Program-made: the position numbers and the translations under genes
Source of the DNA: Pontiellaceae bacterium B12227
GTDB taxonomy: Bacteria > Verrucomicrobiota > Kiritimatiellia > Kiritimatiellales > Pontiellaceae
Assembly (NCBI GenBank): GCA_029432775.1
Contig: JAROAZ010000001.1
Span: 248,001 to 312,000 of the forward strand
DNA length: 64,000 nucleotides
Direction: 5' to 3'
In this document: positions 18,830 to 58,936 of the stretch, piece after piece
Layout: each line of letters begins with the position of its first letter
How positions within the stretch are numbered: the first letter of the stretch is position 1
The notes under the pieces: generated by a model
Database searches by the model: none
What the model was told of the DNA's origin: nothing
The model's input: only the letters and a program-made list of their open reading frames with translations

Positions 18830-19762
18830 CTAATCCATCAAGGACAGTTGGTGGATCGTATGCAAATCCACTTCCAATGATTGGAAGCAGTCGTCGAGCT
18901 GCTCCATGGTTCGGCACCCGATCAGAGGATAGACCGGGTAGTCTTTGGTTTTCCACAAGGCCAGCACCAGCGCGGATACACTATGCCCGCTCGCGTCCGA
19001 CAGCGCCTTGAGCTTTCCGGCAATCCGGTTGCACCCTTCGGTATTGAACGGGTGCTCAGCGAGTGAGGGATGGTCCGTTCCGAGGCGCACCACCTTTTCA
19101 TAATAGCCCGCCGCCTGCGAGGTGTAGGGCATCAATGGCAAACCGGTTTCCCGGTGATAGCGCTCGCCCACTTCGTCGAGCACCGTCAGCAACGGAATCT
19201 CCATCGGCTTGCGGAACCGCCCGCCGATACAGGCCATCGGCTGATTCGCGGAAAACCCTTCCCATCCATTTTTCATCGCGACCGCAGCGGCTTCCTTCAA
19301 CCGGGTAACCGAAAAATTGGAAGCACCATAGTGCCGAACCCAGCCCCGCTCCCGAAAATTTTCCCCGGTGTGGAGCAGTTCTTCCACCGGGCGGGTTTCA
19401 TCATCGCGATGCAGCCAATAGAGATCGATACAATCCACCCCCAGCGCTAGGCGGCTTTTTTCAATATCGTGCGTCAATTCCTCCGCACTCAAACGCGGTC
19501 GGTTCAGCTGATCCATCGGCGGATGGCCGCCCTTGGTGGAAATCAGAAAGTCATCGCGGCAGCCACGCGCTTTCAGCCACCGGCCGATAATCTCCTCGCT
19601 TAAGCCTTCATTCGGAGGCGGATAACACCGGGCGGTATCCAGAACCCGGCCGCCCCGCTCCCGGTAAAAATCCATCATCTGAAAAGCGGTCGCCTCATCC
19701 GGACTCAACCCGAACGTCCCGCTTCCCAGAACAAGGAAGGTATCCTTCGGAAGATTAATCAT
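18830..19762 (-). CDS. Aldo/keto reductase
   Basis: 310 residues, no signal peptide, cytoplasmic. The tetrad of the aldo/keto reductase family is present: Asp42 and Tyr47 (LDTARCY), Lys77 (ISTKGG) and His118 (YWLHRD). The NADPH-side strand near the C-terminus reads YPLIGCRTMEQL. Known family role: NADPH-dependent reduction of an aldehyde or ketone, or oxidation of a sugar. The start overlaps the upstream stop by 8 bp, so it is coupled to the isomerase-like gene. In this context it probably acts on a released monosaccharide; the substrate is not shown. Confidence 0.88.
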   Translation of the reverse strand: MINLPKDTFLVLGSGTFGLSPDEATAFQMMDFYRERGGRVLDTARCYPPPNEGLSEEIIGRWLKARGCRDDFLISTKGGHPPMDQLNRPRLSAEELTHDIEKSRLALGVDCIDLYWLHRDDETRPVEELLHTGENFRERGWVRHYGASNFSVTRLKEAAAVAMKNGWEGFSANQPMACIGGRFRKPMEIPLLTVLDEVGERYHRETGLPLMPYTSQAAGYYEKVVRLGTDHPSLAEHPFNTEGCNRIAGKLKALSDASGHSVSALVLALWKTKDYPVYPLIGCRTMEQLDDCFQSLEVDLHTIHQLSLMD

Positions 19763-20624
19763 TCAGCTTCTTCAGCATTTCACGATAGACGTCGATAGAG
19801 TCGGCGTGATGGCTCTGTCGGACTTTCTGCAGCCCGTAGGTGTGCAGCAGGACCGGGCCTTCATAATCGATAGATTTCAGCGCGGTCAAAAGTTTGGCCG
19901 CGTCATAGTCGCCGTCGCCCAGCGGCTGGATGTTTTTACTCCAGTCGCCTTTCGCCGCACCTTCGTATTCGATATCCGTTCCGCTGATACTAGGCAACCG
20001 GAGCCAGGGTTTGACCGTGGCCGCCACCTCGTTGAGCCGTTCATGATTCCCGGCGCGGATTTCGTGGCACAGGTGCAGTGAAAGATAGACATCCTCACGA
20101 TCCAGCTCCTCAATCACCGCAAGCGCCTCTTCCGCCGACTCGATGGCCGTACGGTCGTGGGGATAAAGAATAAACTCTATACCGGCACCGGCCGCCAGAT
20201 CCGCAATGTGGTTGATCCCCTCAACCATTTCTTTGCGCTCAAGGCCGTCCTCGATCTGGACGATAAGCCACAGGCTCGCATCAGCTTTTTTCAATCGACT
20301 CAGCGCCCGTTCAACAAGGGCATAGTTTTTTGAATTGTCCTTCTTAAGTTTTAAATGAACATACCCGGCATACACTTCAAAATCGGACGCCGCGGCCACC
20401 TTTAGATATTCATTGAATTGGATAAGCTGCTTCTGGCTCGACAGATTAAAAACCATGCCGCCGTAGCCCAATTTCTGCAGCGCGTCGATCTGCTCTGCCT
20501 TGGTGTCACCCAGCCGGTCGAAGTCAAAGTGAAAGCTGCCCAGCGGCCACGTTTCCATGGTGGTTTCCGCAGCAACTGCGGAAACCATCATCAACGTGAT
20601 AAAACTCAGAAAGAAGTGCTTCAC
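19755..20624 (-). CDS. Sugar phosphate isomerase/epimerase-like TIM-barrel protein, exported
   Basis: 289 residues. GTG start with GGAGG 7 bp upstream. An N-terminal signal peptide (MKHFFLSFITLMMVSAVAA) precedes a barrel of the xylose isomerase-like / AP-endonuclease 2 superfamily: GSFHFDFDRLGD, FILYPHDRT, YLSLHLCHE, WLRLPSISGTD. The His/Glu/Asp residues on these strands would form the metal site. Family members interconvert ketoses and aldoses or epimerise sugars. The signal peptide is unusual for an isomerase but common among paralogues in Verrucomicrobia and Planctomycetes. Activity unknown. Confidence 0.8.
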   Translation of the reverse strand: MKHFFLSFITLMMVSAVAAETTMETWPLGSFHFDFDRLGDTKAEQIDALQKLGYGGMVFNLSSQKQLIQFNEYLKVAAASDFEVYAGYVHLKLKKDNSKNYALVERALSRLKKADASLWLIVQIEDGLERKEMVEGINHIADLAAGAGIEFILYPHDRTAIESAEEALAVIEELDREDVYLSLHLCHEIRAGNHERLNEVAATVKPWLRLPSISGTDIEYEGAAKGDWSKNIQPLGDGDYDAAKLLTALKSIDYEGPVLLHTYGLQKVRQSHHADSIDVYREMLKKLND

Positions 20625-20720
20625 TTGCTCGCCTCCAGTTCGCTTTGCCTCTTATAACTCATAATCATTTCACTCATCTTACTTTCTCCCAGGTTAAACA
20701 TCGGTTTGCACGTTGCGGCT

Positions 20721-22157: not shown

Positions 22158-22167
22158 GAAGAGTCCT

Positions 22168-23940: not shown

Positions 23941-23942
23941 GT

Positions 23943-26753
23943 TTAGTCCTGTTTCAATGTTAAATTAATCGTGTGCACTCCATTATCCAACGGATAGGCC
24001 GACAACTCCCGTAACGGTACAGCGGAGCCATCGATCTCAACCGATTCCAACCCCTGGATATCAAGCACCAGCAAGGAGGATGTATTGGGCGGCGTCTCCA
24101 CTGTCCATTGGATTTTATTGTCCGCCCGTTTCCAATGGCTGGAAATTTCACCATATTCCGACTCATAGCCTACCTTCACCCAGTCGAGGGATTCCGGGAA
24201 CACCGGCCGCAGGATGATTTGTTTAAACCCGGGCTGCTCAGAAGAGGGACGGATACCGCCGAGTCCCAGATAGAACCAGGCGTCGTAACCGCCCTGGAAC
24301 GGATGGCTCAGCGAGCGGACGGGTTGCTCCATCGTTGCAGGATTAAAAGCCCCCTTGCGCTCCCAGAGCGACGTGCCGTTCAGCTCATTAAACAGATAAT
24401 AAAATCCCGGATGCCCCTGTGCGAAAAAGGTACCGAGCGCGGTGTCGGCATAGCCATGATCCGCCAGGGCCGGATAAAGCCAGCGATGCCCCAGCGCGCC
24501 GACCGAGGCATGACCGTTCCAGTTTTCAAGCACATCGCGGTTCAACGATTTCGCCACGGTTTCACGCAATTGTTCCGGAACAATATCGAAACAGAGCGCC
24601 ATCGCATCGGCCGTCTGGCTACCGTAGCTGCCTGCGGTTTCATCAAAGAAAGCATCATGAAAATCTGCCGCCGTTTCCTGTTTCCAATCGCTGAATATTG
24701 CCACCTGTTTCTGATCCCCCACAACATCCGCAAGTTCTACCATCACCGCGCAGGCTTTAATAAACAGGGCTGTACTGGTTTTTTCCTTCGGCGTTTGCTG
24801 GGGCCGGCCCGCGCCGCCCACCCGCGCATCGCCGGGCTTTCGGACGGGGTCGCACCAATCGCCATACTTGATGGAAATAATGCCGTTCTTCTGCAATCCA
24901 CGACCGTAGTCCATAAACGCAAGCAGGTTCTTGTAGTGGGCTTTAACGGCGTCGAGATCTCCATGGAAACGGTACTGTTCATCAGCAATCAGCACCTGGG
25001 CGACGGCCCAGTCCGGGCTGTTCCCCCCGCCCCGCTTTCCCGGAACAATGGCCGGTGCAATCTCCTTGTTTGTCCGGAAATCACCCAGATATTTTTCCCA
25101 GAACAAGGCCATGTCATAATTATAGTTTGATAGAGTCAGCGCCGCATGCGCATCGCCCGTCCAGCCGCAGCGTTCGCGGATCGGACAGTCGGAAGGAATG
25201 CTGATCAAATTCGACTCATAGGTCCAAAGCGCGGTGCGATGCACCCGGTTGAGGTGCTCGCTCGAACTTTCAAAGGTTCCAACGGTTGGAACCGCGCTGC
25301 GCATCAGGCAACCCGTCAGCAAACCGAGATCCGGCTTCTTTTTCAGTCCGGTCACTTCCACATACCGGAACCCGTGCCAGGTAAACGACGGCTTCCAAAC
25401 CTTGGAAGATTTTGGTCCTGCCATATAGGCATCGGTCTGGTTTACCTTGGTGGCAAAACCGCCGCCGCTGTCCATGCCGGTGGTTCCGGAATCGTCGGCC
25501 CACTCGGCATAACGCAGATAAACCGCCTTGCCGGGTTCCAGCTCCAGCCTGGAACAATCCATCTCGACCACGCCCGTAAAATTCTGCCCGAAATCATAGA
25601 CCCATACGCCGGGTTCCGGATTCAACAGCTTAACGGGTGCAATGCGTTTCACTTCCTGAACCGTCGGCAGGGTCTGAACTTCCAGCCGCTCGGTCGGTGA
25701 TTTTTCCAAGGTCTGGACCGGTTTCCAATCCTTGGACGTCTGCATTCCGTCAAACACCTCGCCGGCATACACATTGTTTTTCACCACCGCGCTCGGGCGC
25801 GATTCCCACGAACTATCGCTCGCAATGGTTTCCTTCGATCCATCCGCATACGTGAGTTCCAGTTGGGCAATGATGGCCGGGCGGCCGTAATAAAATTTGT
25901 CGGACGAAAAGCCGGCATTCTGCCCGAAAAAGCCCTGCCCCAAATGCACCGTCAGTTGGTGGGTTCCAGTTGTAAGGGCATCATCCAGCACATCGATATC
26001 ATACAGAATGCGTTTTTCAAAATCGGTCTGCGCCGGATTACGCAGGCGGCTCCCCAGCTTTTTTCCATCGAGGTAAAAATCGGCGTATCCCGCGGCTGTG
26101 CTGTAGAGTCGGGCGCGCACCACCTTTTTCCCAATCGTGAAATCCTTGCGCAGCCAGGTGGCCGGCTCCAACGCCTCCAGCCGTTTCGCATTTTCCGGCA
26201 TATCGATTCCGGGCTTCCATTCAATCGGTCGCCGAGCGGCTTTGCCTTTGTCCTGCGCGGTGGCGAACATCCAGACCTTCAGAGCGTCAGTCAACGGAAC
26301 CGGCGGATTGCTTACACTCTGAATCCATCGCGCCGACCAGTCGGCCGGATTGAGCAGGCCCATTTCCCATTTGGCGGGAGCACTCCAGTCTCCTGGGTTA
26401 GTTTCGCCTTCCTGCCAAATCCGTACGCGCCAATAACAGACCTGCCGCGAAGCCAGCTGTTTTCCTGCATATGGAATCTGGAGAGAAACGCCCGAAGCAA
26501 CGCGGCCCGAGTCCCATAAATCGGCCAGATCCTGAATTAACTGTTCGGCACTCGATGCCACCTGAATCTGATAGGCCGACTGCATCGTGCCCGACTGTGC
26601 TGACTCCATTTGCCACGAAAGGCCCGGACTCTTTTTTTCAACCCCGACCGGGTCGATCCGGTAATCGCAGGTTAAGCTGCCGGGCTCCGCGGCGGCGATC
26701 GCAGTTATGCCCGCACATAACAGAACGGATAGCTTTTTTAAATAATGTCGCAT
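23943..26753 (-). CDS. Secreted GH78 alpha-L-rhamnosidase
   Basis: 936 residues with signal peptide. Domain order matches the family: N-terminal sandwich (YQIQVASS), two further beta domains, then an (alpha/alpha)6 catalytic domain and a C-terminal sandwich. The catalytic signature SDCPIRERCGWTGD is at about residues 520-535; its Asp, Glu and Asp match the acidic residues known in GH78. The next Asp/Glu-rich helix (ALTLSNYNYDM) follows. It would release terminal alpha-L-rhamnose outside the cytoplasm. Only 2 bp separate it from the GH99-like gene. Three copies of the TTCCA-N5-TGGAA palindrome lie inside this gene. Confidence 0.9.
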   Translation of the reverse strand: MRHYLKKLSVLLCAGITAIAAAEPGSLTCDYRIDPVGVEKKSPGLSWQMESAQSGTMQSAYQIQVASSAEQLIQDLADLWDSGRVASGVSLQIPYAGKQLASRQVCYWRVRIWQEGETNPGDWSAPAKWEMGLLNPADWSARWIQSVSNPPVPLTDALKVWMFATAQDKGKAARRPIEWKPGIDMPENAKRLEALEPATWLRKDFTIGKKVVRARLYSTAAGYADFYLDGKKLGSRLRNPAQTDFEKRILYDIDVLDDALTTGTHQLTVHLGQGFFGQNAGFSSDKFYYGRPAIIAQLELTYADGSKETIASDSSWESRPSAVVKNNVYAGEVFDGMQTSKDWKPVQTLEKSPTERLEVQTLPTVQEVKRIAPVKLLNPEPGVWVYDFGQNFTGVVEMDCSRLELEPGKAVYLRYAEWADDSGTTGMDSGGGFATKVNQTDAYMAGPKSSKVWKPSFTWHGFRYVEVTGLKKKPDLGLLTGCLMRSAVPTVGTFESSSEHLNRVHRTALWTYESNLISIPSDCPIRERCGWTGDAHAALTLSNYNYDMALFWEKYLGDFRTNKEIAPAIVPGKRGGGNSPDWAVAQVLIADEQYRFHGDLDAVKAHYKNLLAFMDYGRGLQKNGIISIKYGDWCDPVRKPGDARVGGAGRPQQTPKEKTSTALFIKACAVMVELADVVGDQKQVAIFSDWKQETAADFHDAFFDETAGSYGSQTADAMALCFDIVPEQLRETVAKSLNRDVLENWNGHASVGALGHRWLYPALADHGYADTALGTFFAQGHPGFYYLFNELNGTSLWERKGAFNPATMEQPVRSLSHPFQGGYDAWFYLGLGGIRPSSEQPGFKQIILRPVFPESLDWVKVGYESEYGEISSHWKRADNKIQWTVETPPNTSSLLVLDIQGLESVEIDGSAVPLRELSAYPLDNGVHTINLTLKQD

Positions 26754-26764
26754 GCGTTTTTTAC

Positions 26765-28126: not shown

Positions 28127-28151
28127 AAGACTGAAACCTCCTTCGGCTGAA

Positions 28152-30092
28152 TTAGAATTCCCACTCCTTGAGCACTTCGCCTTTGCTGTCCTCCAGGCGA
28201 ATCCACTGAATCAGAAGCTCTCCTGCACCGCGGGCAGGATCAATACGAAGACCGTTAAGGGTGTCCGCAGGGATTTCAACGGCATATTCATGCCATTCCC
28301 CATCGTGATTCACATCAAAATGCGGCATCCGGTCCGGTGAGGGCGGCTTGCCATAATACACAGCACCTTGCCCCGACGCATCCGACTTCATTCGGAGCCG
28401 AACCGTAAACGGACCGTCGATAAAATCTGAAAACGCGTTCGCCTGGATAAAGGGATCCTTTCCCGAACTCTTGATCTGGAGGGATTTTTTAACCGCCTTG
28501 ACTGCGCAGGTTCCGCCGGCCGTCCAACCGCCGGCTGTTCCGCCGGCCGTCTTGACGCTCTTTTGTTTGCTCTTGCTGGAAATCTTCAATCCCCCCGGTT
28601 GCTTGCCGACACGACTCGGATTATATTTTTCCGGATCAAACTTGGGGTTCGGCAAAGGAACCACCGCACCGGAATTCCTGATATAGTTTTCCATCATACG
28701 ATCGAGCGTCTGCACCATTTCCGGATTGGATTTTGCGAGGTTGTTCTGCTCTCCGATGTCATTTTTCAGATTATAGAGCAGATAGTCGTGCGCGCCGCCC
28801 TCCCCCTGATGGAACAGGCGAATCAGTTTCCAGTCGCCCGAAATAAACGACATGGACGGCGGCAGCCAGTCCGGTACCGGCGGGCTGTGCGGGAAATAGG
28901 TAACAATACCACGGCGGTTGAGTTTTCCCCCCTTCAGAAGCGGCGTGATATCCTGTCCGTCCACCACATGGTTCTTCGGCATCCGGACCTTGAGCTGCTT
29001 CAAAAGGGTTGGGTAGAAATCGGCCGACTGGATCACTTCATCGCTGCGGCTTCCCGGCTTCGTGACGCCCGGCCATACGATCACAGTTGGAACACGAACC
29101 CCGCCTTCAAACATGGTGGCCTTTCCGCCGCGCAGCGGAAAATTGCTGGTGGCGGAGGAAATATACTCTTTCCCGTCCCGGCCCGTTTCAACAATCCCGT
29201 TATACATGTTGCCGCCGTTGTCGGACGTAAAGATAATGATGGTCTCATCGGCCATGCCCGACGCTTCGACCGCATCGAGCAGCGAGCCGACGGCATCATC
29301 CATGGAATGAATCATCGCCGCATAGGTCGGCGAGCGCTGCGCATCGTTCGGATCTATCTTTTTGCGGTATTCGTCGATCAGCTCGCTCTTTGCATCGAAC
29401 GGCGCATGAACGGAGAACATCCAATAGTTCATGAAATACGGTTTACTGCCTTTCACCGAATTCATCCAGGCAACGGCCTCTTCGGCCATGCGGTCCTCGA
29501 TATGTTCATTTTCATAGTTCGGATCAAAGTTGTCATACTTCCATGGCGCCACGAAACTGCCCTTCGGTCCCGGCCCGGCATAGTGAGGAAGATCCACGTC
29601 AAAGCCGTGTTCCAGCGGACTGAACGGTTCCGGCCCCAGATGCCACTTTCCAAAGTGGGCCGTTGAATACCCGGCCTTCTTCATCATTTTTCCAAGGGTT
29701 GGAAGTTCGGTATCCAGCCGAGTCACAGAGTCGGTCTGCAACGCCTTGTTTCCTGCCGGCATCGACTTTTCATTGATCGTCGGCTTCAACCGAACTAGCC
29801 CCATGTGATGTTGCGGCGCGGTCGAACCATGGCGAGCCGGCGTCTGCCCGGTCAGAATACTGGCACGCGTCGGCGAACAAAGCGGACTGTTCGAATAGGC
29901 GCGACTGAACGTCATGCCCCGTTTCGCCAACCGCTCCAGGTTCGGCGTGTCATATAGACTGGTTTTACCATACAGCGTGGTGTCCGCCCACCCCAGGTCA
30001 TCGGCGAGAATAAATACCACGTTCATCGGCTTCGCCTGCACACCGGTTAATATTGTCACCAAACAGTAGAGTGCCATCAATTTTATTTTCAT
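28152..30092 (-). CDS. Secreted sulfatase with C-terminal sugar-binding-like domain
   Basis: 646 residues; the start at 30092 is fixed by the ATGA overlap with the upstream stop (30089) and by GAGGTGG. Signal peptide MKIKLMALYCLVTILTGVQA. Modification motif C72-S-P-T-R, with DD (VVFILADDLGW), GKWHLGPEP and FTSDNGG metal sites. After the catalytic part, about residue 520, there is a basic/Gly-rich linker (KSKQKSVKTAGGTAGG), then a beta-sandwich ending LRIDPARGAGELLIQWIRLED, the same final strand as in the locus module. Sulfate ester hydrolysis on the substrate glycan is the family role. Confidence 0.9.
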   Translation of the reverse strand: MKIKLMALYCLVTILTGVQAKPMNVVFILADDLGWADTTLYGKTSLYDTPNLERLAKRGMTFSRAYSNSPLCSPTRASILTGQTPARHGSTAPQHHMGLVRLKPTINEKSMPAGNKALQTDSVTRLDTELPTLGKMMKKAGYSTAHFGKWHLGPEPFSPLEHGFDVDLPHYAGPGPKGSFVAPWKYDNFDPNYENEHIEDRMAEEAVAWMNSVKGSKPYFMNYWMFSVHAPFDAKSELIDEYRKKIDPNDAQRSPTYAAMIHSMDDAVGSLLDAVEASGMADETIIIFTSDNGGNMYNGIVETGRDGKEYISSATSNFPLRGGKATMFEGGVRVPTVIVWPGVTKPGSRSDEVIQSADFYPTLLKQLKVRMPKNHVVDGQDITPLLKGGKLNRRGIVTYFPHSPPVPDWLPPSMSFISGDWKLIRLFHQGEGGAHDYLLYNLKNDIGEQNNLAKSNPEMVQTLDRMMENYIRNSGAVVPLPNPKFDPEKYNPSRVGKQPGGLKISSKSKQKSVKTAGGTAGGWTAGGTCAVKAVKKSLQIKSSGKDPFIQANAFSDFIDGPFTVRLRMKSDASGQGAVYYGKPPSPDRMPHFDVNHDGEWHEYAVEIPADTLNGLRIDPARGAGELLIQWIRLEDSKGEVLKEWEF

Positions 30093-33893: not shown

Positions 33894-35768
33894 CTATTTC
33901 ACCTTCAATTGATACCTAAAGCGGTTGTTTGGTGCGGTGTCGCCGTGATCCTGGAAATCAAGGACATTGAGCGGTTCGGGCATATGGTCGAACCATTTGA
34001 ACTCGACTTCCAATGACTGGAAATCGGAGTTGCCCAGCGGAAAAGCCAGTTCCACAAAATCGGTTCCTGCCGCAAAAGGAATCTCGGTCATCTTTTTCCA
34101 GCGTCCATTACGCCAGGCGCACAATCCAGCCTTCCCCTTGCCGGCAGCGGTCGGAACAACACGAAACTGGTATCCCTCCCAATTCGGAAGATCGCGATCT
34201 GAAAAACGGATCAGCAGGTTCATTAAGCCTGGATCGTTTTTCTCCTGTTCCAATGGATCAGCACATTGGGCCATGAAGTAAAGATTGGTTTCACCGCGTG
34301 CCACTTTGCAGGAAACAATATCGTTGCGGCCCCATTCATTTTTATACGGCCCGGCGGAGGCATAGCCGGCGTGATTCCGGTGGCGCGTGTCGCCCACATC
34401 GTCGCGGTATTCCGGCTCGACCACTTTCCAATCATTGGAATTCCCGTCCACGGAAATCTTCCAATGATTGGAAACCTCAGGCGGCGGTTTTACCCCCTTG
34501 AACTTCCGAATATTGGAAACCATCTGGTAGTAATAGTTATCCTCGAACCCACCGCGCATCGGCTCGCAGTCGCGGCTGTACTCAATAGAGTATTGGTCTA
34601 TAAACCACGTGGTGCCAGGGTCAATGGTTCCATCGGCGAATTTTCGTGGCTTTTTGCCATCGTAGATGAAGCGCTGGGCCACCCATTCGTTCCAGCCGGT
34701 AATGAAAATAAACTCAGGATCCACTTCCAGCGCATGATCCCACTGTTCCTGAAAATAGGTTCCAATCATTGGATTCTGTTTTTCAGGTTGAGGCTGCTTC
34801 CCGTCCTTATGACTGCGGCCAATACTGTTGACCGGATGCGATGCGGCGGCCACCGCCACCTGCTCCGGTTTTTCCGGCGATTCGTGCCAACCATGCGCCT
34901 GAGGGGTAAACGAGATCCACGGCCACTTATCTTTTCCATCACCAAACCATTTCGTTTTCTTCGGCCATGCCCACGAGCGGCGGATGGAGAAAAAGTCGAG
35001 GATCTCCTGCGGCAGATCGTCGGGAATGGTCATCATCAGTGGCTTGCCTTTCCAGCGAAACCAGAGTTCGGGATAAAGTCCCGGCTTGTAAAAGTCGTTA
35101 AACACCTCGGTCGTGGCCTTGACATGGTTTGAATTAAAAAGAAACGCCACCTGCGGCGTCCTCCCGCCCTTCGCGCGAATATCCGTGAACACTTCACAGA
35201 GCTTCAGATAATGCTTTTTATAGGTCACGGCGTTGGTAACATCGAACACCACCACATCCACCCCGGCATCGGCCAGCATCTGTGCATGTTTGGCAATGAT
35301 CCACTCATCGTCCATCAGGTAGTAGCCAAAGCGCGGTTCCTCCCAGAAATGAAACAGGTTTTTAGGCCCCCATTGCCGCCGGCTCTCGGGCTGTTTCAGA
35401 ATTTCGGTAACATTGTGCGGCCCCGACTGCTTGTGGCCGCCGAGCCAGAGGAAATAGAAAATACCGACAAACTTGTCTTCACGGGGAGCTCCGCACACTT
35501 CATAGCCCGGAAGCTCCCTACCCAATCCATCGGTCGCCGCCCACGGCTTGCACACGAGCGGTCCCTTACGGACGGGAACCACTTTTTCCTCCCGAACCTG
35601 AACCGGCTCAACCTTCTTAGCGGGTATCGGTTCAGCATCCTCTATGGGTTGAAGCACAACCATGGGAGGTAGCTTTTGCATTTCAGCTTCCTCGTGCGGA
35701 GGAAGCGTATTGGAATCGGAGCAACCGACAACCAATGCAAGTGAAAGCATCGCATAAAATCGAATCAT
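33894..35768 (-). CDS. GH99/GH71-like glycosidase, lipoprotein, with C-terminal sugar-binding-like domain
   Basis: 624 residues. Lipoprotein signal (ALVVGC), then a linker of about 50 residues, so it is probably membrane-anchored. Barrel motifs parallel the paralogue at 22168: GIFYFLWLG, ADAGVDVVVFDVTN and FIFITGWNEWVAQRF at about residue 358. The C-terminal 170 residues carry a CBM9-like domain (YRDDVGDTRHRNHAGYA, LYFMAQCADPL, LEVEFKWFDHM). Gap to the upstream sulfatase is 4 bp. Three TTCCA-N5-TGGAA palindromes lie in its 3' part, two only 18 bp apart. Confidence 0.72.
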   Translation of the reverse strand: MIRFYAMLSLALVVGCSDSNTLPPHEEAEMQKLPPMVVLQPIEDAEPIPAKKVEPVQVREEKVVPVRKGPLVCKPWAATDGLGRELPGYEVCGAPREDKFVGIFYFLWLGGHKQSGPHNVTEILKQPESRRQWGPKNLFHFWEEPRFGYYLMDDEWIIAKHAQMLADAGVDVVVFDVTNAVTYKKHYLKLCEVFTDIRAKGGRTPQVAFLFNSNHVKATTEVFNDFYKPGLYPELWFRWKGKPLMMTIPDDLPQEILDFFSIRRSWAWPKKTKWFGDGKDKWPWISFTPQAHGWHESPEKPEQVAVAAASHPVNSIGRSHKDGKQPQPEKQNPMIGTYFQEQWDHALEVDPEFIFITGWNEWVAQRFIYDGKKPRKFADGTIDPGTTWFIDQYSIEYSRDCEPMRGGFEDNYYYQMVSNIRKFKGVKPPPEVSNHWKISVDGNSNDWKVVEPEYRDDVGDTRHRNHAGYASAGPYKNEWGRNDIVSCKVARGETNLYFMAQCADPLEQEKNDPGLMNLLIRFSDRDLPNWEGYQFRVVPTAAGKGKAGLCAWRNGRWKKMTEIPFAAGTDFVELAFPLGNSDFQSLEVEFKWFDHMPEPLNVLDFQDHGDTAPNNRFRYQLKVK

Positions 35769-40152: not shown

Positions 40153-43100
40153 GGCAGCTCCACGAGTACACGGTAGAAACCGTTGGTTGAAGGTGTTCCG
40201 CTTGCGAAGAACACAGTCTGATCGGAGCCCAGCGGCCCGGCGCTTTCAACGGTTCCCCAACTGGTCGGCTTCAGGCTTTCCGTCCATTGCAATGAATAAA
40301 GCCGACCGGCCTTTCCATCGACCTGTACCGGGATTTGTGAGCCATCGACAACAAACTTGTTTTCTGCCGGATCAAGCCAATCGGTGCCTGCAATAATTTC
40401 CGCCCAATCGTCGAAACCATCGCCGTCCGCGTCACCGTTGGCGGAACGGATCCAGTCGATCTCAAAGGTGGCCCCTTCGGATCCGATCGGATCGACCCGA
40501 AGTTTGTCGATGATGTTTCCATCCCAGCCGGATGTTCCAGCCATTGGAAACTCGATCACCTGCCACGTTCCGTTGTTCGTGTACTGCTTCGTAATCAAGT
40601 TGCCGACAAACCCGCCCCCTTCGGGAGCCCAGTATAGCTGGACTCCCGCATTGGCACTGGCCCGCATCCGTAATGTGACGGCTGGCACAGGCGCGGAATC
40701 AAAACCGACCTCGTGATTTTCAAAGTGCGGATCGCCGGAGGTCGTCGTTCCTTGAACAGCCCCGTTGGACACCATAAATCCGGTCATGTTTTTGGGATTG
40801 GTGTGCCACCCCTCAAAATCATCGTCGGCATTAAAATGGAAGGCCATGTCCGCAGGATCATTCGGATCGCGGGAATGGATATTTTCCTCCCCGTCGGTCA
40901 TGCCGTCGCCATCCGTGTCGAGCCTGGGTACGGATGTAATATATTCCCCGCCGGCATCCAGCACCGCCACTTCGAGCACCTGCGTATTATAATATCCCGA
41001 GCTGGGCTGGAAACGGATCTGCGCCACCGGCGCGCCGGGATTGATCGGAATTTCGAACGTGCGTTCCACATTGTCGTGCGTGACCGCAAAGCCGACGGAT
41101 TGTGCGATCAGCCATTCCGTGTCGCCGGGAAACTTCCACCAGATGCGTCCATCGCCATAGCTCTGCGAGGTCATCGTGACCCGCACCTTCGCGGGAACCG
41201 GTTCCGCCGAAAGGTCGGGGCTGTCGAGCGCGGGAAGGAAGCTGTTGGAAACCATCTTTAATCGCCCGCCCGTACCATCCTGCACCCATACGCCATGGTT
41301 CGGCGTCCACCCTTCAAACGTTGGCGGAACATAGTTCGGATTATAAATCGGCACCAGTGCTTCCGAGTCGGTGATGTGCTGCGTGATCAACGCATCCAGC
41401 GAAGCCACCAGCGCGGGATGGTCGTCCGCCAGGTTGTTCTCCTCGCCGGGATCATCCGCAATATTGTAAAGCTCGTAGCGGTGAACATCCTGCCCGCCGC
41501 CACCATGGTAAAAGCGGATCAACTTCCAGTCATCCTGCCGTACCCACACCCCGGGAAAGGTTCCGGTCGAGGGCGGGGACTGGGGAAACTGAACAAAGAC
41601 CGTGTTGCCGTTGGAAGGCGCCTGCCCCAACAGCGAAGGCACCAGCGAGGTCGAATCCAGCGCATATCCGTCGTAGGGCTCCAGGTCGAGCATGTCCAGC
41701 ACCGTGGCATAGATATCCATATTGTTGACGTTGTTGCTGTTGACGGTTCCGCCCGCCACCTGCCCCGGCCAATCCACGATAAAGGGGACGTGTGAGCCGC
41801 CGTCCCAGATGCAGGCCTTGCCGGCGCGCGACGGCCAGTTGTCGGTCGGCACGGCTAGGTCTTCGGCGATCCAGCTATACATCCAACCGCCGTTGTCGCC
41901 GGTAAAAAAGATGATGGTATCGTCGGTCAGCCCCAGCTCTTCGAGCTTGTCGAGCACTAGGCCAACCCCATCATCCATCACTTCGATCATGGCCGCCATC
42001 GTCGGGCTGTCCTGCCGTCCTTCCGAACCGGAAAGGCCAACATATTTTGAACGGATATCCGGCTTGGCCTGGAATGGCCCATGGACATCGTACCACCACA
42101 TGTTCATCAGGAAGGGTTGGTGGCGGTTGTCTTCGATAAAGTCCTCCGCCCAGGCCGCCAGTATGTCGTTAACGTGATCGTCTGTCTCGACCGGAGAACC
42201 GTCCGGCCAAGTGGCGGGAATATTGGAATCGGCCGAAAAGGGAGCAAAGTAGCCGCCGGGCGGGCCCGAATGCTGGCGGCCGCCGACAACAAAATCAAAG
42301 CCTTGGTTTTCGGGAATATATTCATCCTTGCCCAGATGCCACTTCCCGAGAAAAGCGGTCGAGTAGCCCGTCTGCTTCATCAGCTCGGCATAGGTGACAT
42401 AGGCATTCGGCAAACGGGTGCGCGTGCCGGCCGAAGTGGAAGGAAGATAAGAATTGGCAGTCGTCCCAACGCCCGGATCGAGAACCACATTATCCGAATG
42501 GCCATTCGGCGTGTTAAAGCGTACGCGTGCCGGATAAAGTCCCGTCAAAACGCCCGCGCGCGTCGGCGAGCAGAGCGGATTGGCCGAATGGGCATTCGGG
42601 AAATTCATCCCCGCTGCCGCCAGGCGTTCGACGTTCGGTGTCTGGTAATAGTCGCCGCCGTTCACGGTCACATCGCGCCAGCCCAGATCGTCGGCCATCA
42701 TGACAATCACATTCGGGCGGTTACCGCTTTCGCCAACAGCGATACGATCAAAACGAATTTCCGCCCCCGAGGATTCCCCGTTGGGCAGATCAATACGGAG
42801 CTGTTTCAGCGTCCCGTGCCAGTTCGAGCGAACCGACATGTCGATTTCATAAAGGGTATAGCCCGGATCATTCGTCACGACCGTGAAGTCAACCGAGTTT
42901 CCGATAAAGGACGGATCTTCCAAGGTCTGGAAAAACACCGCAGCGGTCTCGTTCGAGGAACCGTTCTTTGCCTTCACGTAGACCCGCGATATTCCGGTTA
43001 GATCAAGTCCCAGATTATCAGGTGAAATAATCTGGGGATCATTGCCTGCGGCAACCACCACATAGTCGCCACCCGCCACCGCATCGCTTGTTGTTCCCGC

Positions 43101-47902: not shown

Positions 47903-47945
47903 AAGCGAAGTGGAATTTTTCTTTCGAACGCCTGTTCAATAGCAA

Positions 47946-50066
47946 TCAAAGCTCATAGGCGCCTTTGGTATCAATCTTCAGTGTTTTCCCGTTAAAGCGG
48001 AGGGTCAGCGTGCTGGTAGGTGTTGCCTTCACATTGATTTTTACCCGATCCGTGGAAACGCTGACATCCATCGGGATGGACTGGTATTTGAGGTTGCGCA
48101 CGGTCATTTCCGGGCAGGCCTTCGGCAGATTGGGTTCGATATTGAGCACCTGTCCGTCGGGACGCAGGCCCATAAAGCCGAACGGCACGGCCGCAGTGAG
48201 CATGCTGCTTTCGGTAAACTCGTGATCGATTCCGACACCGCCGGCGGTGCCTCCGCCCTGCAGCGTGGTGCCGCCCTTGCCATCGCCATAGTATTTGCGA
48301 TAGCCGCCGTATGCCGTAACCTCTTCGTCCCATTCGCGGATAGCCATCAGCCGTTTCCACGCGTTGTCCGCGCCGAGCGTCTTGATGCGGCTCATGATGT
48401 CGTAGAACGAGAAACCGAGCACGGCCCCGCCATCCTGAACCTGCCCGCCGAACGGCAGGGTTTCGGGGCCCGTCCATGCAAAGGAATACCATTCAACATT
48501 GCGCTTCGTGGTGGCGCGCGGCGCGAGGCGATAGTTGTAAATATCGGCTCCCGTCGAGGTGTCGCCCTCCACAACGCGCTGCCCGTCGATCCATTCCATA
48601 ACGCGCTTCGCATTCTCCGCGTTGGCTATGCCGTAATGAATCGCTTCAAGGTTGACGAAGGTAAAGCCGTAGTCGTGCGCAATGCCGTCAGCATCGATGC
48701 AGCCGACAAAACGTCCGGCTTGCTTATCGAAAAACTTTTTGTTCGCGGTTTTCTTCACATCGGCGGCGTGCTCGCGCAATGCCTTGGAGTCGCCGCCAAC
48801 GACCTCTTCCAAATCCGCCATCGCCAGCAACGATGCGTAGTAGTGCGTGGTGGTGTACATGTCGTCCCAACCCAGCGGGAGCAGGTCCCAATAGTTTCCG
48901 CCCTTGCCGTGACCCACATGGAAGGTTTTGGTTCCGTCGGCATTAACCGTGTAGCCGGGGCGGCCGTCGTGCCCGTGCCATTCGCAGCGGATGTAGTTGA
49001 GTGCGCGGCCATTGCCCTCTTCCATCATATAGCGCATCGCCGTGCGCAGGCGCGGCATCTGTTCTTTCAGGAAAGAGGTGTCGCCCGTCCAGCGAACATA
49101 TTCATAGGCCGACTTGATGAAGATGGCGTTGTTCACCAGATGGCGCGTATCCCAATGGCTGAAGATCGAGCGGACCAGCAGCGTCCGCCTCTTTTCCAAT
49201 CCCTGGAAACGGAAACGAATGCGCGTAATTTTGCCCTTCCACCCCGGATGCTGATCCAATGCGAGGATTGAATGGAACATGCCCGTGTCGGAGCTGTAGG
49301 GTTCAATCGTGTCGGGGCTGAAGGCCATCCGGCGATCGGTGCTCCAATCGGAGTCGCCCTCGCACTTCCATTCCATGACCGGACGCAACGCAGGCATGTC
49401 GCCGTCGGCATTCCAGCGGATCTGGATGAACGGGCAGTTGAAGGCATCCAGTTCGACGCCTTCCGGGCTGGTAAGCGTCGGCTGTTTTCCCGAAACCTTC
49501 AGCTTCCAGGCATGCTTTTTTTCAAAGAGGCCCTTCGATTTCAGTCCGTCGGTTTCCCACGTCTTAGTGGCGGCTTTACCGAAATGTTCCGGAGCATAAT
49601 CGCGGGAGGGCTGATAGCAGATTTCCCAACCCAGCGGTTCATCATAGAAATGCCACCCGGCGGTGGTTCCACGAAAACCGTTTTCGTAGGGCACCTGAAT
49701 CCAATGCGGGAAAGGCCAGCCGTGGTCGTGCGAAGACGCGCCGTGCTGCTGTGTCAGCACATAGCCATCTTCGGCCATGCCCTGCTCCGACAGCACCTGA
49801 CGGTGCTGCAGCTGAATCGAATGTTCCCCCCACTCCGCACCGTTCAACCAGGCGTCGGAGATGGCCAGGTATTCGCGCGGAAAGATGGTGTTCTCGATGT
49901 TGATTCGGTTGGTGAAGAACGAATCAATATATCCGTTCACCCACGCAGCACCCTCGGGAGCACCGGAAAATTCAAAGCGCGTGACATCGTCCCCGACCGT
50001 TCCCTGCCCGAAAGAAGAAACCGCTAAGACCGTGCATACAACTGTAATCCATTTATTCATCTGCAT
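47946..50066 (-). CDS. Secreted glycosidase-like protein, six-hairpin type, unassigned family
   Basis: 706 residues; signal peptide ending SSFG. N-terminal beta region (residues about 20-280), then an alpha-helical region with NNAIFIKSAYEYVRWTGDTSFL, MMEEGNGRALNYIRCEWHGHDGRPGY and WDDMYTTTHYYASLLAMADLEE, as in (alpha/alpha)6 glycosidases. Acidic residues in IDHEFTESSM and WDEEVTAYGG are candidates for catalysis. The C-terminal sandwich ends in LTLRFNGKTLKIDTK. It resembles the GH78/GH95 group in overall layout but lacks the D-C-P-x-R-E-R signature; I cannot name a family. Last gene of the seven-gene operon, 3 bp after a sulfatase. Confidence 0.7.
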   Translation of the reverse strand: MQMNKWITVVCTVLAVSSFGQGTVGDDVTRFEFSGAPEGAAWVNGYIDSFFTNRINIENTIFPREYLAISDAWLNGAEWGEHSIQLQHRQVLSEQGMAEDGYVLTQQHGASSHDHGWPFPHWIQVPYENGFRGTTAGWHFYDEPLGWEICYQPSRDYAPEHFGKAATKTWETDGLKSKGLFEKKHAWKLKVSGKQPTLTSPEGVELDAFNCPFIQIRWNADGDMPALRPVMEWKCEGDSDWSTDRRMAFSPDTIEPYSSDTGMFHSILALDQHPGWKGKITRIRFRFQGLEKRRTLLVRSIFSHWDTRHLVNNAIFIKSAYEYVRWTGDTSFLKEQMPRLRTAMRYMMEEGNGRALNYIRCEWHGHDGRPGYTVNADGTKTFHVGHGKGGNYWDLLPLGWDDMYTTTHYYASLLAMADLEEVVGGDSKALREHAADVKKTANKKFFDKQAGRFVGCIDADGIAHDYGFTFVNLEAIHYGIANAENAKRVMEWIDGQRVVEGDTSTGADIYNYRLAPRATTKRNVEWYSFAWTGPETLPFGGQVQDGGAVLGFSFYDIMSRIKTLGADNAWKRLMAIREWDEEVTAYGGYRKYYGDGKGGTTLQGGGTAGGVGIDHEFTESSMLTAAVPFGFMGLRPDGQVLNIEPNLPKACPEMTVRNLKYQSIPMDVSVSTDRVKINVKATPTSTLTLRFNGKTLKIDTKGAYEL

Positions 50067-50069
50067 GTG

Positions 50070-51503: not shown

Positions 51504-51513
51504 GATCTATCCT

Positions 51514-53409
51514 TTAATAAAATTTGTATTCGGTGATAACGGATTGGTCGGGCGTGAGCAGGTTGACGTTGCGCAACTCAACCTCGTCGCCCTCGTTCGA
51601 AAGCACAAAGCGGACATCTTTGATCCGGCTCTGGAAATCCATCTTCACGCGGAATGTTTTCCAATCATTGGAAAGCGGCTTGGCCACATTGCGTTCGGCG
51701 GAACCGAAGTCCGGCGTGGCATGCGAGGTCCATTGGACGCTGACGATGTTGCCCTTGGCAGAGCGGGCTTCAAACTCAACCCATGCGCTCTCCACCAGGC
51801 TGGGTGTAACGCGGGTTTGTGCATCGAATTGTTTTTCCTCTGCCCGCATCACCAGCGCACCGTCTTTAGCCGTAAGCGATCCTTTTCCAGTCGTTGAAAA
51901 CCAGACCCCGACCGTGCGGCCGTTATAGGCTTTGTTGGCATTGGGTTTCAGCGCTCCGCTTTTCTTGTAGTAGCCGTCGAGCTGGGCGGCCATCGTCTGC
52001 ACCTTTTCGGGATAGGCCGAGGCAAGGTTCTTCGTTTCGCCAATGTCGTCCTTGAGGTTATAGAGCTCATAGCGGTGCTCCTGCCCTGCGCCATCGAACC
52101 AGAAGCGCAGCAGTTTCCAGTCGCCGGAACGAATCCAGGTATTGGGAATATTCATGGTGGCCGGAACAAAGTGCGAGAAGTCGCACACCGTCGGTCCGCG
52201 ATCAAAGTCTTTGCCCTTGAGCGCGGGCACATAACTGACGCCATCCTTATGATCGTCCGGCCGCAGCTTCTGTCCGGTCATTTCCAGCAGCGACGGATAG
52301 TGGTCGACCGTCGAGATCACGGCCGGGTTCACCGAACCGGGCTTGATTTTTCCCGGCCAGCTGACAATAAGGGGAATGCGCACGCCGCCCTCATAGTTGT
52401 TGCCCTTGCCGGAACGCAGCGGCTCGTTGTTGGTGGGCGTGGTGCCATCGGCGACGTCGTACATGTTGCCGCCGTTGTCGGAGGTGAAGATCACAATCGT
52501 ATCGTCGGCAAGTCCGTTGGCTTCGAGCGCATCGAGTACACGGCCGACATTCTCGTCCATCACCTGAATCATCGCCGCCATGGTCGGGCTGTGCTGCGGG
52601 TTGGCCGGATCGGCTTTCTTCTTCCATTGTTCAACATATTCGGGTTTGGACTGGAACGGCGCGTGCACGTCGTAGAGCCAGAAGCACATCATGAAGGGCT
52701 TTTCTTTGTTTGCCGCAATGTACTCAACGGCGCAGTCGCCGAGATAGTCGTCGATGTGCAGATTCGCCGGCGGATTTTCCGGCAGCGTTTTCTTTTTATC
52801 CCACGGCGGGAAAAATTTGCGGTTGCCGTCCATGCCGGGAGGGCCCGGATGCTCGCGGCCGCCGACCACAAAGTCGAACCCGTTGTTTTCGGGAATATAG
52901 GGATCGTAGCCCATGTGCCATTTACCGAGGAAGGCGGTGGCATACCCCGCATCCTTGAATGCTTCACCCAGGGTGTAGTATTCAAGCGGGAGGTGGTTAA
53001 CCGACGAGGGCCCGGCGCCGCGCTGATCAGGAGCACCGTTATGCGACTCCGCGTGCTTATGATCGCCCGGAATATGACCCGACGCCGACGTGAATCCAGT
53101 GCGCACCGGATACTGACCGCTCAGAATACTGGAGCGGGTCGGCGAGCAGAGCGGATTGGCCGAATAGGCATCTGTAAAGCGCATGCCCGTGGCCGCCAGG
53201 CGGTCGACGTTCGGTGTTTCATAGAAGGTGCTGCCGTAACAGCCGGTGTCTTTCCAGCCAAGATCGTCCACCACTATAAACAACACGTTCGGCTGGCGGG
53301 CTTCTGCCACAAGTATCAACCACGGAATACACAGAATACACGGAAGGATTTTTCTGATTCCGTGTGTTCCGCGTATTCCGTGGTTTAAAAGTTTTTTAAT
53401 CTGGCTCAT
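51514..53409 (-). CDS. Secreted sulfatase whose signal peptide is encoded by an inverted repeat
   Basis: 631 residues. N-terminus: MSQIKKLLNHGIRGTHGIRK, then ILPCILCIPWLILVAEA and cleavage before RQPNVLFIVVDDLGWKD. Almost all of residues 8-30 is encoded by the 28-bp arms of the inverted repeat at 53318-53385. Modification motif C88-S-P-T-R, GKWHMGYDP and FTSDNGG metal sites. C-terminal part (residues about 500-631) is a sandwich-like domain (AWVEFEARSAKGNIVSVQW). TAATG overlap joins it to the upstream sulfatase stop. Confidence 0.88.
   Translation of the reverse strand: MSQIKKLLNHGIRGTHGIRKILPCILCIPWLILVAEARQPNVLFIVVDDLGWKDTGCYGSTFYETPNVDRLAATGMRFTDAYSANPLCSPTRSSILSGQYPVRTGFTSASGHIPGDHKHAESHNGAPDQRGAGPSSVNHLPLEYYTLGEAFKDAGYATAFLGKWHMGYDPYIPENNGFDFVVGGREHPGPPGMDGNRKFFPPWDKKKTLPENPPANLHIDDYLGDCAVEYIAANKEKPFMMCFWLYDVHAPFQSKPEYVEQWKKKADPANPQHSPTMAAMIQVMDENVGRVLDALEANGLADDTIVIFTSDNGGNMYDVADGTTPTNNEPLRSGKGNNYEGGVRIPLIVSWPGKIKPGSVNPAVISTVDHYPSLLEMTGQKLRPDDHKDGVSYVPALKGKDFDRGPTVCDFSHFVPATMNIPNTWIRSGDWKLLRFWFDGAGQEHRYELYNLKDDIGETKNLASAYPEKVQTMAAQLDGYYKKSGALKPNANKAYNGRTVGVWFSTTGKGSLTAKDGALVMRAEEKQFDAQTRVTPSLVESAWVEFEARSAKGNIVSVQWTSHATPDFGSAERNVAKPLSNDWKTFRVKMDFQSRIKDVRFVLSNEGDEVELRNVNLLTPDQSVITEYKFY
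53318..53385. repeat. Long inverted repeat (28-bp arms) inside the sulfatase signal peptide
   Basis: Left arm 53318-53345 and right arm 53358-53385 pair over 28 bp with three mismatches, all transitions, and a 12-nt loop. Each arm contains repeated ACGGAA/ACACGGAA blocks. The element looks like a small mobile or palindromic repeat unit that has become coding. No second copy was seen in this window. Confidence 0.8.
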
Positions 53410-56661: not shown

Positions 56662-56677
56662 AAAAAATCCTTTTCGT

Positions 56678-58936
56678 TTAGGCGGTAAGCCCAGCGGCCT
56701 CAGTTGAAGACAGCTGGCAGGTTTCTTCATCATCCGGCAGGACTCTGAAAACATGACGTCCGGCATTTACGGTTTCGGTCAGATAAGGCAGGCGAATCGT
56801 GGCCGGCACTGGCGTTTCCAATTCGACAACATACCCCGCCCCCTTTTTTTTCCAATGGATGGAAACCGGGCCCGCTACAGAATCATAGGACGCTTTAACA
56901 AAATCAAACCGGTTCGTAAGGCACGGCTCGACTTCCAGCGTCCGGAACCCTGGCGAACCGGGCTTGATTCCCGCCAGCGATTCAAACATCCACTCGCAAA
57001 CCACGCCGAACGCATAATGGTTGAAGGAGTTCATGCCAACATCGCCAAAACCATTGTCTTTTGTCCAGCTGTTCCAGCGTTCCCATATCGTGGTGGCACC
57101 GTTATTGACTTCGTAGAGCCACGATGGATGCCCTTCGTTCAGCACCAGCTCGACAGCCAGATCGGACCGGCCCATTTTCGTGAGAGCCGGACAAAGATAG
57201 GCCGTACCGACAAAACCGGTGGAAAGATAGCCTTTGTTCTTTTCGAGGAGCTTGACCAGGCAGTCACATGCCTTTTGATAATCGTTACCTTCGAGCAGGT
57301 CCATTGCGATCGCCAATGCACAGGCCGTCTGCGTTTTTACCACGATCTTCTCATCCTCAATGAAGGTTTCTTTGAAAAGTCTGCGGCTTGATTGTTCCAA
57401 TGATTGGAAGCGCAGTTCATCGGCTGACTCGCCCATTGCCGAAGCCATCTCCGCCATTAGATGCGCATCATAGGCGCGGTAGGCCAGGCCGATCAACGGA
57501 ACCGGTGTTTCTTCGCCTATGTTGAGCCAATCGCCATACGACACTGCATCGGGGCCGTTGTGCAGGTTGCCGTCGGAGGAAATCAGCTCCATGTATTTTT
57601 TCATGGAATTCCACCACGGGCGAATAAAGCCGAGATCGCCATAAGCTTGCCATAATACATACGGGCAGATAATGCCGGCATCCGCCCATGCCGCCTGACC
57701 ATGCCCCATGCGCCCCATAAAGGGTGCCATATCGGGATATCCGCCGTTTTCATGCTGGGCATCGTGCAGATCCACCAACCATTTATTATAAAACGGTCGA
57801 AGATCCGCTAAATAGGTGGCCGAGCGGATAAAGATCTGCGTATCCCCGGTCCAGCCAAGGCGTTCGTCGCGCTGCGGGCAGTCGGTTGGCACATCCAGGT
57901 AGTTGCCGCGGAAGCCCCATTGGATATTGCTGAACAGCTGGTTCACCTTTTCATCGGAACATTCGAACATTGCCGTTTCCTGCAAACCGGACATCCATAC
58001 GACACCGGTAACGGTGTCGAACGACGGTTCGCCAGGAAGGCCATAGACTTCCACATATCGGAAGCCGTGGAAAGTGAAGCGTGGCTGCCAGACCTCTTCG
58101 CCCTCTCCCTTTGCAATGTAGCGGTCGATTGCCTTGGCGCTGCGGAGATTCTCGGTGTAGAGCGTGCCGTCGGGATTCAACATTTCTCCGTGCTTGATCA
58201 CGATTTCCGTTCCGGCAGATACGTTAAGTTTCAGACGAACCACGCCGACCATATTCTGGCCGAGGTCAAAAACATGACGATCCGGCTCCGGATGTGTCAC
58301 CGCAACGGTCGGACACTCGGCCACGGTTTTTACCGCCTCTCCCGGAAAAGGTTCGATGAATGCAGGTAACTGCTCGTGCGGATCAAGCGTGTTGACCGCC
58401 CCCCACGCGGAATCATCGAATCCCGGCAAATCCCACCCCGGTATTTTCCTCCGGGCATCGTAGGTTTCGCCCATCAGCAGATCCGCTGAGAGAATTGGCC
58501 CCTCGACACCTTTCCAATCGGCATCCGTGCAAATGGTTTCCGCGGTTCCATCAGCATAATGAATGTCCAGCTCCGCACTGAACCAGGCATCGTGCCCATA
58601 ATATCCCTTATCGCCGAACGGCCCGAAATATCCGGCGAACCACCCTGGAGCAATAATTCCGCCGATGACGTTTTCGCCGGCATTCATACGATCCGTCACA
58701 TCATAGCTATGGAAATAGACTCGCTTTCGATAATCCGTCCACCCGGGGAGCAGTTGCGCATCGCCCACCTTCCCGCCATTCAGCCTCAGCTCACAGACGC
58801 CGAGGGCCGTTACTCGAACCACGGCCGTCGCCACCATCTTATCCACTGAAAAACTTTTCCGAAGATAGGGAACCGCTGGATTCCATCCGCACCGGATCCA
58901 TTCCGCAGTCCATTTATTTTGTTCGTTAAAAGACAT
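56678..58936 (-). CDS. Cytoplasmic GH78 alpha-L-rhamnosidase
   Basis: 752 residues; GGGAG 5 bp before the ATG at 58936. Unlike the other two GH78 genes it has no signal peptide, so it is intracellular. It carries the N-terminal sandwich pair (LRLNGGKVGDAQLLPGWTDY, VYFHSYDVT), the D-C-P-Q-R-D-E-R-L-G-W-T-G-D signature at about residue 349 and a C-terminal sandwich. It would hydrolyse imported rhamnosides. First gene of the seven-gene operon, divergent from the regulator, with operator site 58976-58990 before it. Two TTCCA-N5-TGGAA palindromes inside. Confidence 0.9.
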   Translation of the reverse strand: MSFNEQNKWTAEWIRCGWNPAVPYLRKSFSVDKMVATAVVRVTALGVCELRLNGGKVGDAQLLPGWTDYRKRVYFHSYDVTDRMNAGENVIGGIIAPGWFAGYFGPFGDKGYYGHDAWFSAELDIHYADGTAETICTDADWKGVEGPILSADLLMGETYDARRKIPGWDLPGFDDSAWGAVNTLDPHEQLPAFIEPFPGEAVKTVAECPTVAVTHPEPDRHVFDLGQNMVGVVRLKLNVSAGTEIVIKHGEMLNPDGTLYTENLRSAKAIDRYIAKGEGEEVWQPRFTFHGFRYVEVYGLPGEPSFDTVTGVVWMSGLQETAMFECSDEKVNQLFSNIQWGFRGNYLDVPTDCPQRDERLGWTGDTQIFIRSATYLADLRPFYNKWLVDLHDAQHENGGYPDMAPFMGRMGHGQAAWADAGIICPYVLWQAYGDLGFIRPWWNSMKKYMELISSDGNLHNGPDAVSYGDWLNIGEETPVPLIGLAYRAYDAHLMAEMASAMGESADELRFQSLEQSSRRLFKETFIEDEKIVVKTQTACALAIAMDLLEGNDYQKACDCLVKLLEKNKGYLSTGFVGTAYLCPALTKMGRSDLAVELVLNEGHPSWLYEVNNGATTIWERWNSWTKDNGFGDVGMNSFNHYAFGVVCEWMFESLAGIKPGSPGFRTLEVEPCLTNRFDFVKASYDSVAGPVSIHWKKKGAGYVVELETPVPATIRLPYLTETVNAGRHVFRVLPDDEETCQLSSTEAAGLTA

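Follow-up and report, generated by a model that had tools for sequence, protein, structure and literature searches.

Why should the same interrupted palindrome be written over and over inside the varied genes of one stretch of bacterial DNA, and what would read it there? The question is raised by 64,000 nucleotides of Pontiellaceae bacterium B12227 (GenBank assembly GCA_029432775.1, contig JAROAZ010000001.1, positions 248,001 to 312,000), referred to here as the window, in which the word TTCCA-N5-TGGAA recurs far above chance. The palindrome runs through the whole genome and through those of many relatives, and it is kept by purifying selection as a word in the DNA. We consider it probable, if by no means assured, that it serves as the duplex-DNA site of a putative homodimeric protein in many Kiritimatiellia, the main job of which is most likely chromosome architecture.

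The window contains 17 exact copies, against a mean of 0.08 and a maximum of 1 in 100 dinucleotide shuffles. Among spacers of 0 to 24 bases N5 alone is enriched, every other spacer giving 0 to 2 matches, and the word is the most frequent palindrome with two five-base arms when gaps of 0 to 12 are compared. Matches with up to one mismatch number 39, of which 22 carry the mismatch, where 2.6 are expected. All 17 exact copies lie within genes, as delimited by a simple gene finder based on codon usage, and they use the three codon phases 6, 3 and 8 times. The original prediction, which had counted 17 copies and had argued from their differing phases for a signal in the DNA as opposed to the protein, is borne out: each position that it named was recovered, and its assignment of peptides by phase is right at all eight positions for which it gave one. 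When synonymous codons are shuffled within genes, with protein and codon use kept, a mean of 2.0 copies and a maximum of 5 remain (200 runs); this shuffle had been set beforehand as a refuting test, which the observation withstands. The flanks, inspected by eye, show no duplication, the other ground for refutation that had been named. The copies are listed below without a strand of their own, with the strand of the gene in brackets.

18872..18886, no strand, exact copy in the aldo/keto reductase gene 18830-19762 (-)
24130..24144, no strand, exact copy in the alpha-L-rhamnosidase (GH78-type) gene 23943-26753 (-)
25277..25291, no strand, exact copy in the alpha-L-rhamnosidase (GH78-type) gene 23943-26753 (-)
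25393..25407, no strand, exact copy in the alpha-L-rhamnosidase (GH78-type) gene 23943-26753 (-)
29690..29704, no strand, exact copy in gene 28152-30062 (-)
34008..34022, no strand, exact copy in gene 33894-35735 (-), whose GH99 match is weak and below the family cut-off
34426..34440, no strand, exact copy in gene 33894-35735 (-), first of a pair with a 33 bp step
34459..34473, no strand, exact copy in gene 33894-35735 (-), second of the pair with a 33 bp step
34760..34774, no strand, copy with one mismatch (at the last base), perhaps a site that is weaker or has decayed
36892..36906, no strand, exact copy in gene 35773-37671 (-)
37862..37876, no strand, exact copy in gene 37681-40152 (-)
39485..39499, no strand, exact copy in gene 37681-40152 (-)
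40535..40549, no strand, exact copy in the sulfatase gene 40149-43937 (-)
42918..42932, no strand, exact copy in the sulfatase gene 40149-43937 (-)
49194..49208, no strand, exact copy in gene 47946-50066 (-)
51659..51673, no strand, exact copy in gene 51514-53409 (-)
56850..56864, no strand, exact copy in the alpha-L-rhamnosidase gene 56678-58948 (-)
57395..57409, no strand, exact copy in the alpha-L-rhamnosidase gene 56678-58948 (-)

The GH99-like label first given to one of these genes rests on the match below cut-off.

The copies in the window are one stretch of a genome-wide feature, since the whole genome (designated G000; 6.29 Mb in 206 contigs) holds 2297 exact copies, or 1 per 2.7 kb, as against 6 of the reversed, non-complemented word. 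Counts over 20-kb segments show mild over-dispersion (P 0.027). The span of 38.5 kb originally described is thus no bounded unit, although both outer parts of the window do lack exact copies. Positions 1-18,871 contain none where 6.9 are expected at the genome rate (P about 0.001), and the empty segment 57,410-64,000 is not unusual (P 0.09). The former segment, which encodes large unknown proteins, one sulfatase, DUF5722 and PKD, is possibly more recently acquired DNA.

Placement was studied in a 464-kb sample of G000, which yields 163 sites when its stretches are scanned apart and 164 when neighbouring stretches are joined. A spacer of 5 gives 163 sites, and each other spacer from 0 to 30 gives 0 to 4. 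Most copies are genic (126 of 164), with 34 intergenic and 4 on gene edges, so that the motif, far above chance genome-wide and mostly within genes, behaves as an iterated palindrome. The density in coding DNA is 0.32 per kb (126 copies in 398 kb), and intergenic densities of 0.65 per kb between divergent, 0.52 between tandem and 0.54 between convergent genes reveal no preference for orientation. Copies are spread uniformly along genes, without bias to the gene ends (P 0.20), in codon phases 57, 38 and 31. Across the 309 genes of the sample, 200 synonymous-codon shuffles give a mean of 16.7 and a maximum of 26 in place of the 126 copies; some survive shuffling because the proteins already hold fitting peptides. 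Copy-bearing genes include those for glycerol kinase, exonuclease III, a TlyA-type methyltransferase and a MutY-like protein (just below the family cut-off).

Evidence that the word itself is under selection comes from alignment of the G000 sample with corresponding stretches of congeners, in which sites falling in alignment gaps were counted. In G001 (77 kb aligned at 78% identity) 38 of 46 copies are kept exactly, compared with 11.4% of control windows of the same phase, all ten bases being required. The corresponding values are 10 of 20 against 8.1% in G009, and 7 of 14 against 5.3% in G027. Congeners of lower density keep 2 of 14 (G005), 3 of 15 (G021), 1 of 8 (G024, with four more at one mismatch), 1 of 4 (G017), 1 of 4 (G010), 1 of 2 (G003), 0 of 1 (G006) and 0 of 1 (G004). 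Both sites compared with G015 fall in alignment gaps and neither is kept (0 of 2), and the G013 alignment contained no testable site.

Codon alignments of 64 genes between G000 and G001, in which 27 of 32 coding sites are exact, separate the DNA from the protein, and they supply the check at synonymous positions that had been proposed at the outset. Of 51 silent third bases in the core, 49 (96%) are identical, as against 0.56 elsewhere. The proline codon CCA is identical in 10 of 11 cases within sites and in 0.19 elsewhere, and the glycine codon GGA in 11 of 11 and 0.39, respectively. Amino acid identity is ordinary at site codons (0.85 compared with 0.83 for the rest), and the spacer within the motif is conserved at 0.70, below average. 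In G009 silent core sites are identical in 6 of 7 cases, versus 0.52. Purifying selection therefore acts on a duplex-DNA word, as is shown well for the pair G000 and G001, and chance, codon use and peptide conservation are ruled out by the dinucleotide and codon shuffles together with silent-site identity.

The full motif is about 17 bp long and can be written T-TTCCA-R-w-S-w-Y-TGGAA-A. Its symmetric profile, from the 163 sites of the 464-kb sample, is T(0.55)-TTCCA-A/G(0.73/0.23)-t(0.44)-C/G(0.94)-a-T/C-TGGAA-A(0.55), and a similar profile emerges when it is estimated from the surplus of TCC-N7-GGA matches (454) above those with other spacers (about 170). One-mismatch copies in the sample mostly differ at the fifth base (66, with A changed to G in 49) or at the outer T (50); the other three positions have 10-11 each, where wrong-spacer controls have 4-7.5 per position. 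The second of these profiles and the phasing analyses use a relaxed pattern that also catches some chance matches. On the sense strand of genes in G000, G001 and G032, the bases next to the core, which a selected hairpin should keep paired, are A..C (unpaired) in 54 cases and G..T (wobble) in 58 (P 0.78), and over all sites of these genomes the two halves vary independently (P 0.88), which argues that half-sites are read separately, as by a protein dimer. In two relatives (L027:1380-1820 and L023:9950-10150) some copies seem by eye to be split by another small palindrome; in one example the unit CCCCGATA..TATCGGGG lies between the motif halves and resembles the insertion of a mini-element into the site.

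How far the motif extends was determined from copy counts in 117 draft genomes, in which a feature not found may simply not have been assembled. The 28 members of the genus, probably Pontiella, range from 5 to 2297 copies (2237 in G001, 1146 in G027, 20 in G004), and the sole other member of the family has 1673. All 14 genomes of the other family in the same order contain 181-1091 copies. In the rest of the class 30 of 74 genomes have at least 44, and the other 44 have 0-27 (reversed control 0-9). When named genomes were scanned for such copies in tandem pairs, at least 116 stretches were returned, with Lentisphaerae, Kiritimatiell-, Verrucomicrobia and uncultured bacterium among the matches listed, as well as three stretches of one 'Spartobacteria' metagenome-assembled genome (MAG) and one of a 'Firmicutes' MAG. 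A viral collection held tandem pairs in only 5 stretches, and viral spread is accordingly disfavoured. An origin-terminus bias, which the original prediction had suggested looking for, was examined in G032 (3.88 Mb in one contig): 53 exact copies lie in the half around the origin given by GC skew and 36 in the other half, but the rank correlation is not significant (P 0.20).

In relatives the copies form tandem arrays, in which spacers and flanks are unrelated between the copies inspected. Among 116 named loci, selected for having a 31/32-bp pair and hence no guide to how frequent pairing is, the 218 steps of up to 70 bp comprise 92 of 31 bp, 104 of 32 bp, 9 of 21-22 bp and 13 of 16, 17, 30, 33, 62 or 64 bp; the first 80 loci have 31 or 32 bp in 138 of 148 steps. 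Each of 16 genomes picked by the analyst from the motif-rich ones, but unselected for pairs, contains tandem pairs with gaps of 8-25, for example 746 in G048, 252 in G028 and 84 in G000; the reversed control gives 0. In G032, from which 400 kb were sampled evenly, longer distances are phased as well: the spectrum of 31 distances of 18-150 bp between relaxed matches has its peak at 10.4 bp, with a power of 24.2, which none of 500 uniform sets attains, and the phase reaches beyond 150 bp. Nearest-neighbour steps of 37-200 bp are also phased in G032 (n=21; 0 of 5000), and more weakly in the other non-Pontiella sequences pooled (n=43, P 0.0045), of which two of four sets fall below 0.05 alone. Long-range phasing is thus clear for G032; other genomes lend it partial support, and G000, in which only near pairs (about 27-35 bp) are in excess, shows none.

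Independent halves, selection on the duplex and whole-turn spacing in relatives together point to a dimeric protein with side-by-side contacts, and helical phasing of neighbours to one that binds cooperatively. Each half-site (about TTTCCAR) would be read by one subunit, and neighbouring dimers would line up along the same side of the helix at intervals of two or three turns, in mutual contact. Such a protein may act by wrapping, by bridging or by forming short loops, as a sequence-specific nucleoid-associated protein. Control of single promoters appears less likely than an architectural role across the chromosome because most copies in G000 lie in varied genes without promoter bias.

Several observations weigh against this interpretation. 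The congeners G004, G018 and G015, with their 5-12 copies per Mb, get by without the feature. In G027 only 5 of 8 silent core sites are identical, versus 0.50, on few data, and site codons there are less conserved than others (0.68 compared with 0.80). Steps of 37-200 bp carry no 10.45-bp phase in the two Pontiella samples (G000, n=43, P 0.42; G001, n=71, P 0.50), in which short steps are also looser. When four relatives of the same order are pooled, the range 36-160 bp yields P 0.52 and the range 36-300 bp P 0.027; taken singly, G031 and G040 peak at 9.4-9.7 and 12-13 bp. Arrays of other Kiritimatiellia lie near stop codons (median 32 bp), 44 within genes and 154 outside, with 0.36 per kb between divergent, 0.58 between tandem and 0.94 between convergent genes. 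A gene-end role is possible in these organisms, and an insulator-like or roadblock role would fit relatives with arrays near gene ends or in convergent gaps. Finally, no binder was identified among the families searched, namely LacI, Fur, HARE-HTH, Lrp/AsnC and type I specificity subunits.

Most of these families fail as a shared reader on their distribution. No LacI-family protein was found in the motif-rich genomes G031, G034 and G076, and no Fur-family protein in the motif-rich G048, G076, G030, G040 and G036; the boxes of the Fur family have a 7-1-7 layout. A HARE-HTH protein, encoded beside an array in G054, is sporadic (9 of 50 genomes) and out of step with motif density. A binder that regulates its own gene was sought through recurring gene families beside arrays; among the 339 proteins covered, sulfatases recur most, as a cluster of 7, followed by three clusters with 3 members each (SMC is one) and by pairs, which by a rough estimate is not beyond chance.

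The best-surviving alternative gives the architectural idea a named protein, and holds that an Lrp/AsnC-type protein binds the motif as a DNA-wrapping oligomer. Within Sulfolobus, Ss-LrpB binds a 15-bp palindromic consensus, TTGCAAAATTTGCAA, which shares the layout of two 5-bp halves around 5 bp; in the published cases Lrp sites are two or three helical turns apart and the dimers cooperative, matching the arrays described here. A member of the family is present in 20 of 20 motif-rich genomes and 39 of 42 Kiritimatiellia genomes overall (34 with exactly one match, 5 with two and 3 with none), the genomes without it (G014, G043 and G084) being motif-poor. But 19 of 22 motif-poor genomes have one too, and the Lrp-like protein of G004, with its 20 copies, is very similar to that of G001. 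The presumed recognition helix, judged by eye, contains many acidic residues and differs between one motif-rich genome and another. Of the 40 loci of 2 kb that surround family members, only 3 contain exact sites (G037, G032 and the second copy of G076), and in two of these the site is, by eye, no more than about 130 bp upstream of the gene. The scale also differs, as 37 ChIP peaks are reported for Ss-LrpB, 81% of them in or overlapping intergenic DNA, unlike the thousands of mostly genic sites found here. We therefore regard an Lrp/AsnC reader as unlikely, if worth keeping in mind. Most of the proteins in question (L235-L274) are about 160 amino acids long and carry a presumed recognition helix of acidic character; an aminotransferase gene adjoins the Lrp/AsnC-type gene of G037.

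A second alternative, to which we give only a slender chance, is that the motif is a DNA-uptake signal and that natural transformation prefers fragments that bear it. The DNA uptake sequences of Neisseriaceae and Pasteurellaceae are asymmetric. Like the present motif, they number hundreds to thousands per genome with many in genes; they have a preferred orientation within the reading frame (PMC2346458), unlike the palindrome described here, which in relatives is phased at about 10.4 bp. A ComEC-type protein, the only competence component searched for, was found in 28 of 28 genomes tested, which fits a role in uptake, but it is equally present in motif-poor genomes and does not help to explain the phasing. 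Array steps of 31/32 bp and a 10.4-bp phase have no evident part in uptake, and neither the palindromic form of the motif nor the lack of gene-end bias in G000 favours such a signal. One ComEC-type match, G053:C1:1409676-1410500, contains three in-frame TAG codons and may be a pseudogene or an instance of recoded TAG.

Third, the motif could be a by-product of a DNA methyltransferase together with mismatch repair, as in HIP1-like systems. We know of no agreed function for highly iterated motifs of the HIP1 kind, for which a 2015 review offers a model. HIP1 (GCGATCGC) of cyanobacteria is a short palindrome iterated about once per kb, comparable to the 1 per 2.7 kb found here; it is linked to methyltransferases and common in its clade with some members lacking it, and its deviations lie at the ends, much as one-mismatch copies of the present motif mostly change its outer T or its fifth base (PMC4390886). 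The present motif differs in being interrupted, about 17 bp long, graded in its flanks and, in relatives, helically phased with its neighbours. A methyltransferase by-product would leave the graded flanks, the central C/G and the phasing unexplained. A matching methyltransferase, which had been suggested as something to look for, did not emerge from a search confined to type I specificity subunits, the obvious readers of split palindromes: none turned up in G031, G076 or G067, all of them motif-rich, so that type I enzymes are rejected as the shared determinant, and other methyltransferase types were not searched. The by-product explanation seems to us improbable. The likeness to HIP1 and to uptake motifs that was first drawn is fair with regard to scale and placement, but neither system predicts the helical phasing of neighbours; in scale HIP1 may be taken as the nearest analogue, with uptake sequences second. 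The role proposed here is also unlike that of NrdR boxes, NrdR being a repressor of ribonucleotide reductase genes.

It is very hard to sustain that the word acts as an RNA hairpin in mRNA, as a terminator, processing or translation signal: it can form a short stem and arrays in relatives lie near gene ends, yet A..C is as common as G..T beside the core, the halves are independent and all codon phases are used. Least credible of all is that the copies belong to a mobile or REP-like element or follow from conserved peptides. The high copy number and its wide variation between congeners would suit this, but flanks and spacers are unrelated between inspected copies, codon shuffles do not reproduce the count and silent sites are conserved.

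Two other repeats were seen in passing. A 60-120 bp stretch at about 18469-18590 of L009 matches at least 10 places in the same genome (C77, C120, C123 and C137) at 78-85% identity and bears no relation to the palindrome, and a gene-end string of about 28 bp at about 14639-14667 of L009 has 93-100% matches elsewhere in several congeners.

No published report of the motif was found in the openly accessible literature on its spellings, on palindromes in Kiritimatiellae and Verrucomicrobia, and on Kiritimatiella and Pontiella, a body of work outside which most subscription papers fall. The main texts of two Pontiella papers, so far as these were available, do not contain the string 'palindrom', and neither does the available part of a 2026 paper on reverse-complement triplets, which has one Kiritimatiellaceae genome in a table. 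The motif belongs with the iterated palindromes, to which helical phasing is a new element.

The broadest form of the architectural interpretation is that of a class-wide, sequence-specific chromatin, with thousands of 17-bp sites in and between genes, selected at silent positions and helically spaced in several lineages, on which a dedicated dimer would coat, wrap or bridge the chromosome, and which in Pontiella would range from dense to lost. We hold this tentatively, as a serious prospect that falls somewhat short of an even one. Should an architectural protein prove to be the reader, a second, structural code would be carried in the coding sequences of much of a bacterial class. The motif offers handles beyond those of HIP1: its graded profile covers about 17 bp, selection shows at silent sites, spacing in relatives is locked to the helix, and copy numbers among congeners run from a handful to more than 2000. 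Through such handles, the question of what reads an iterated genomic word becomes directly testable.

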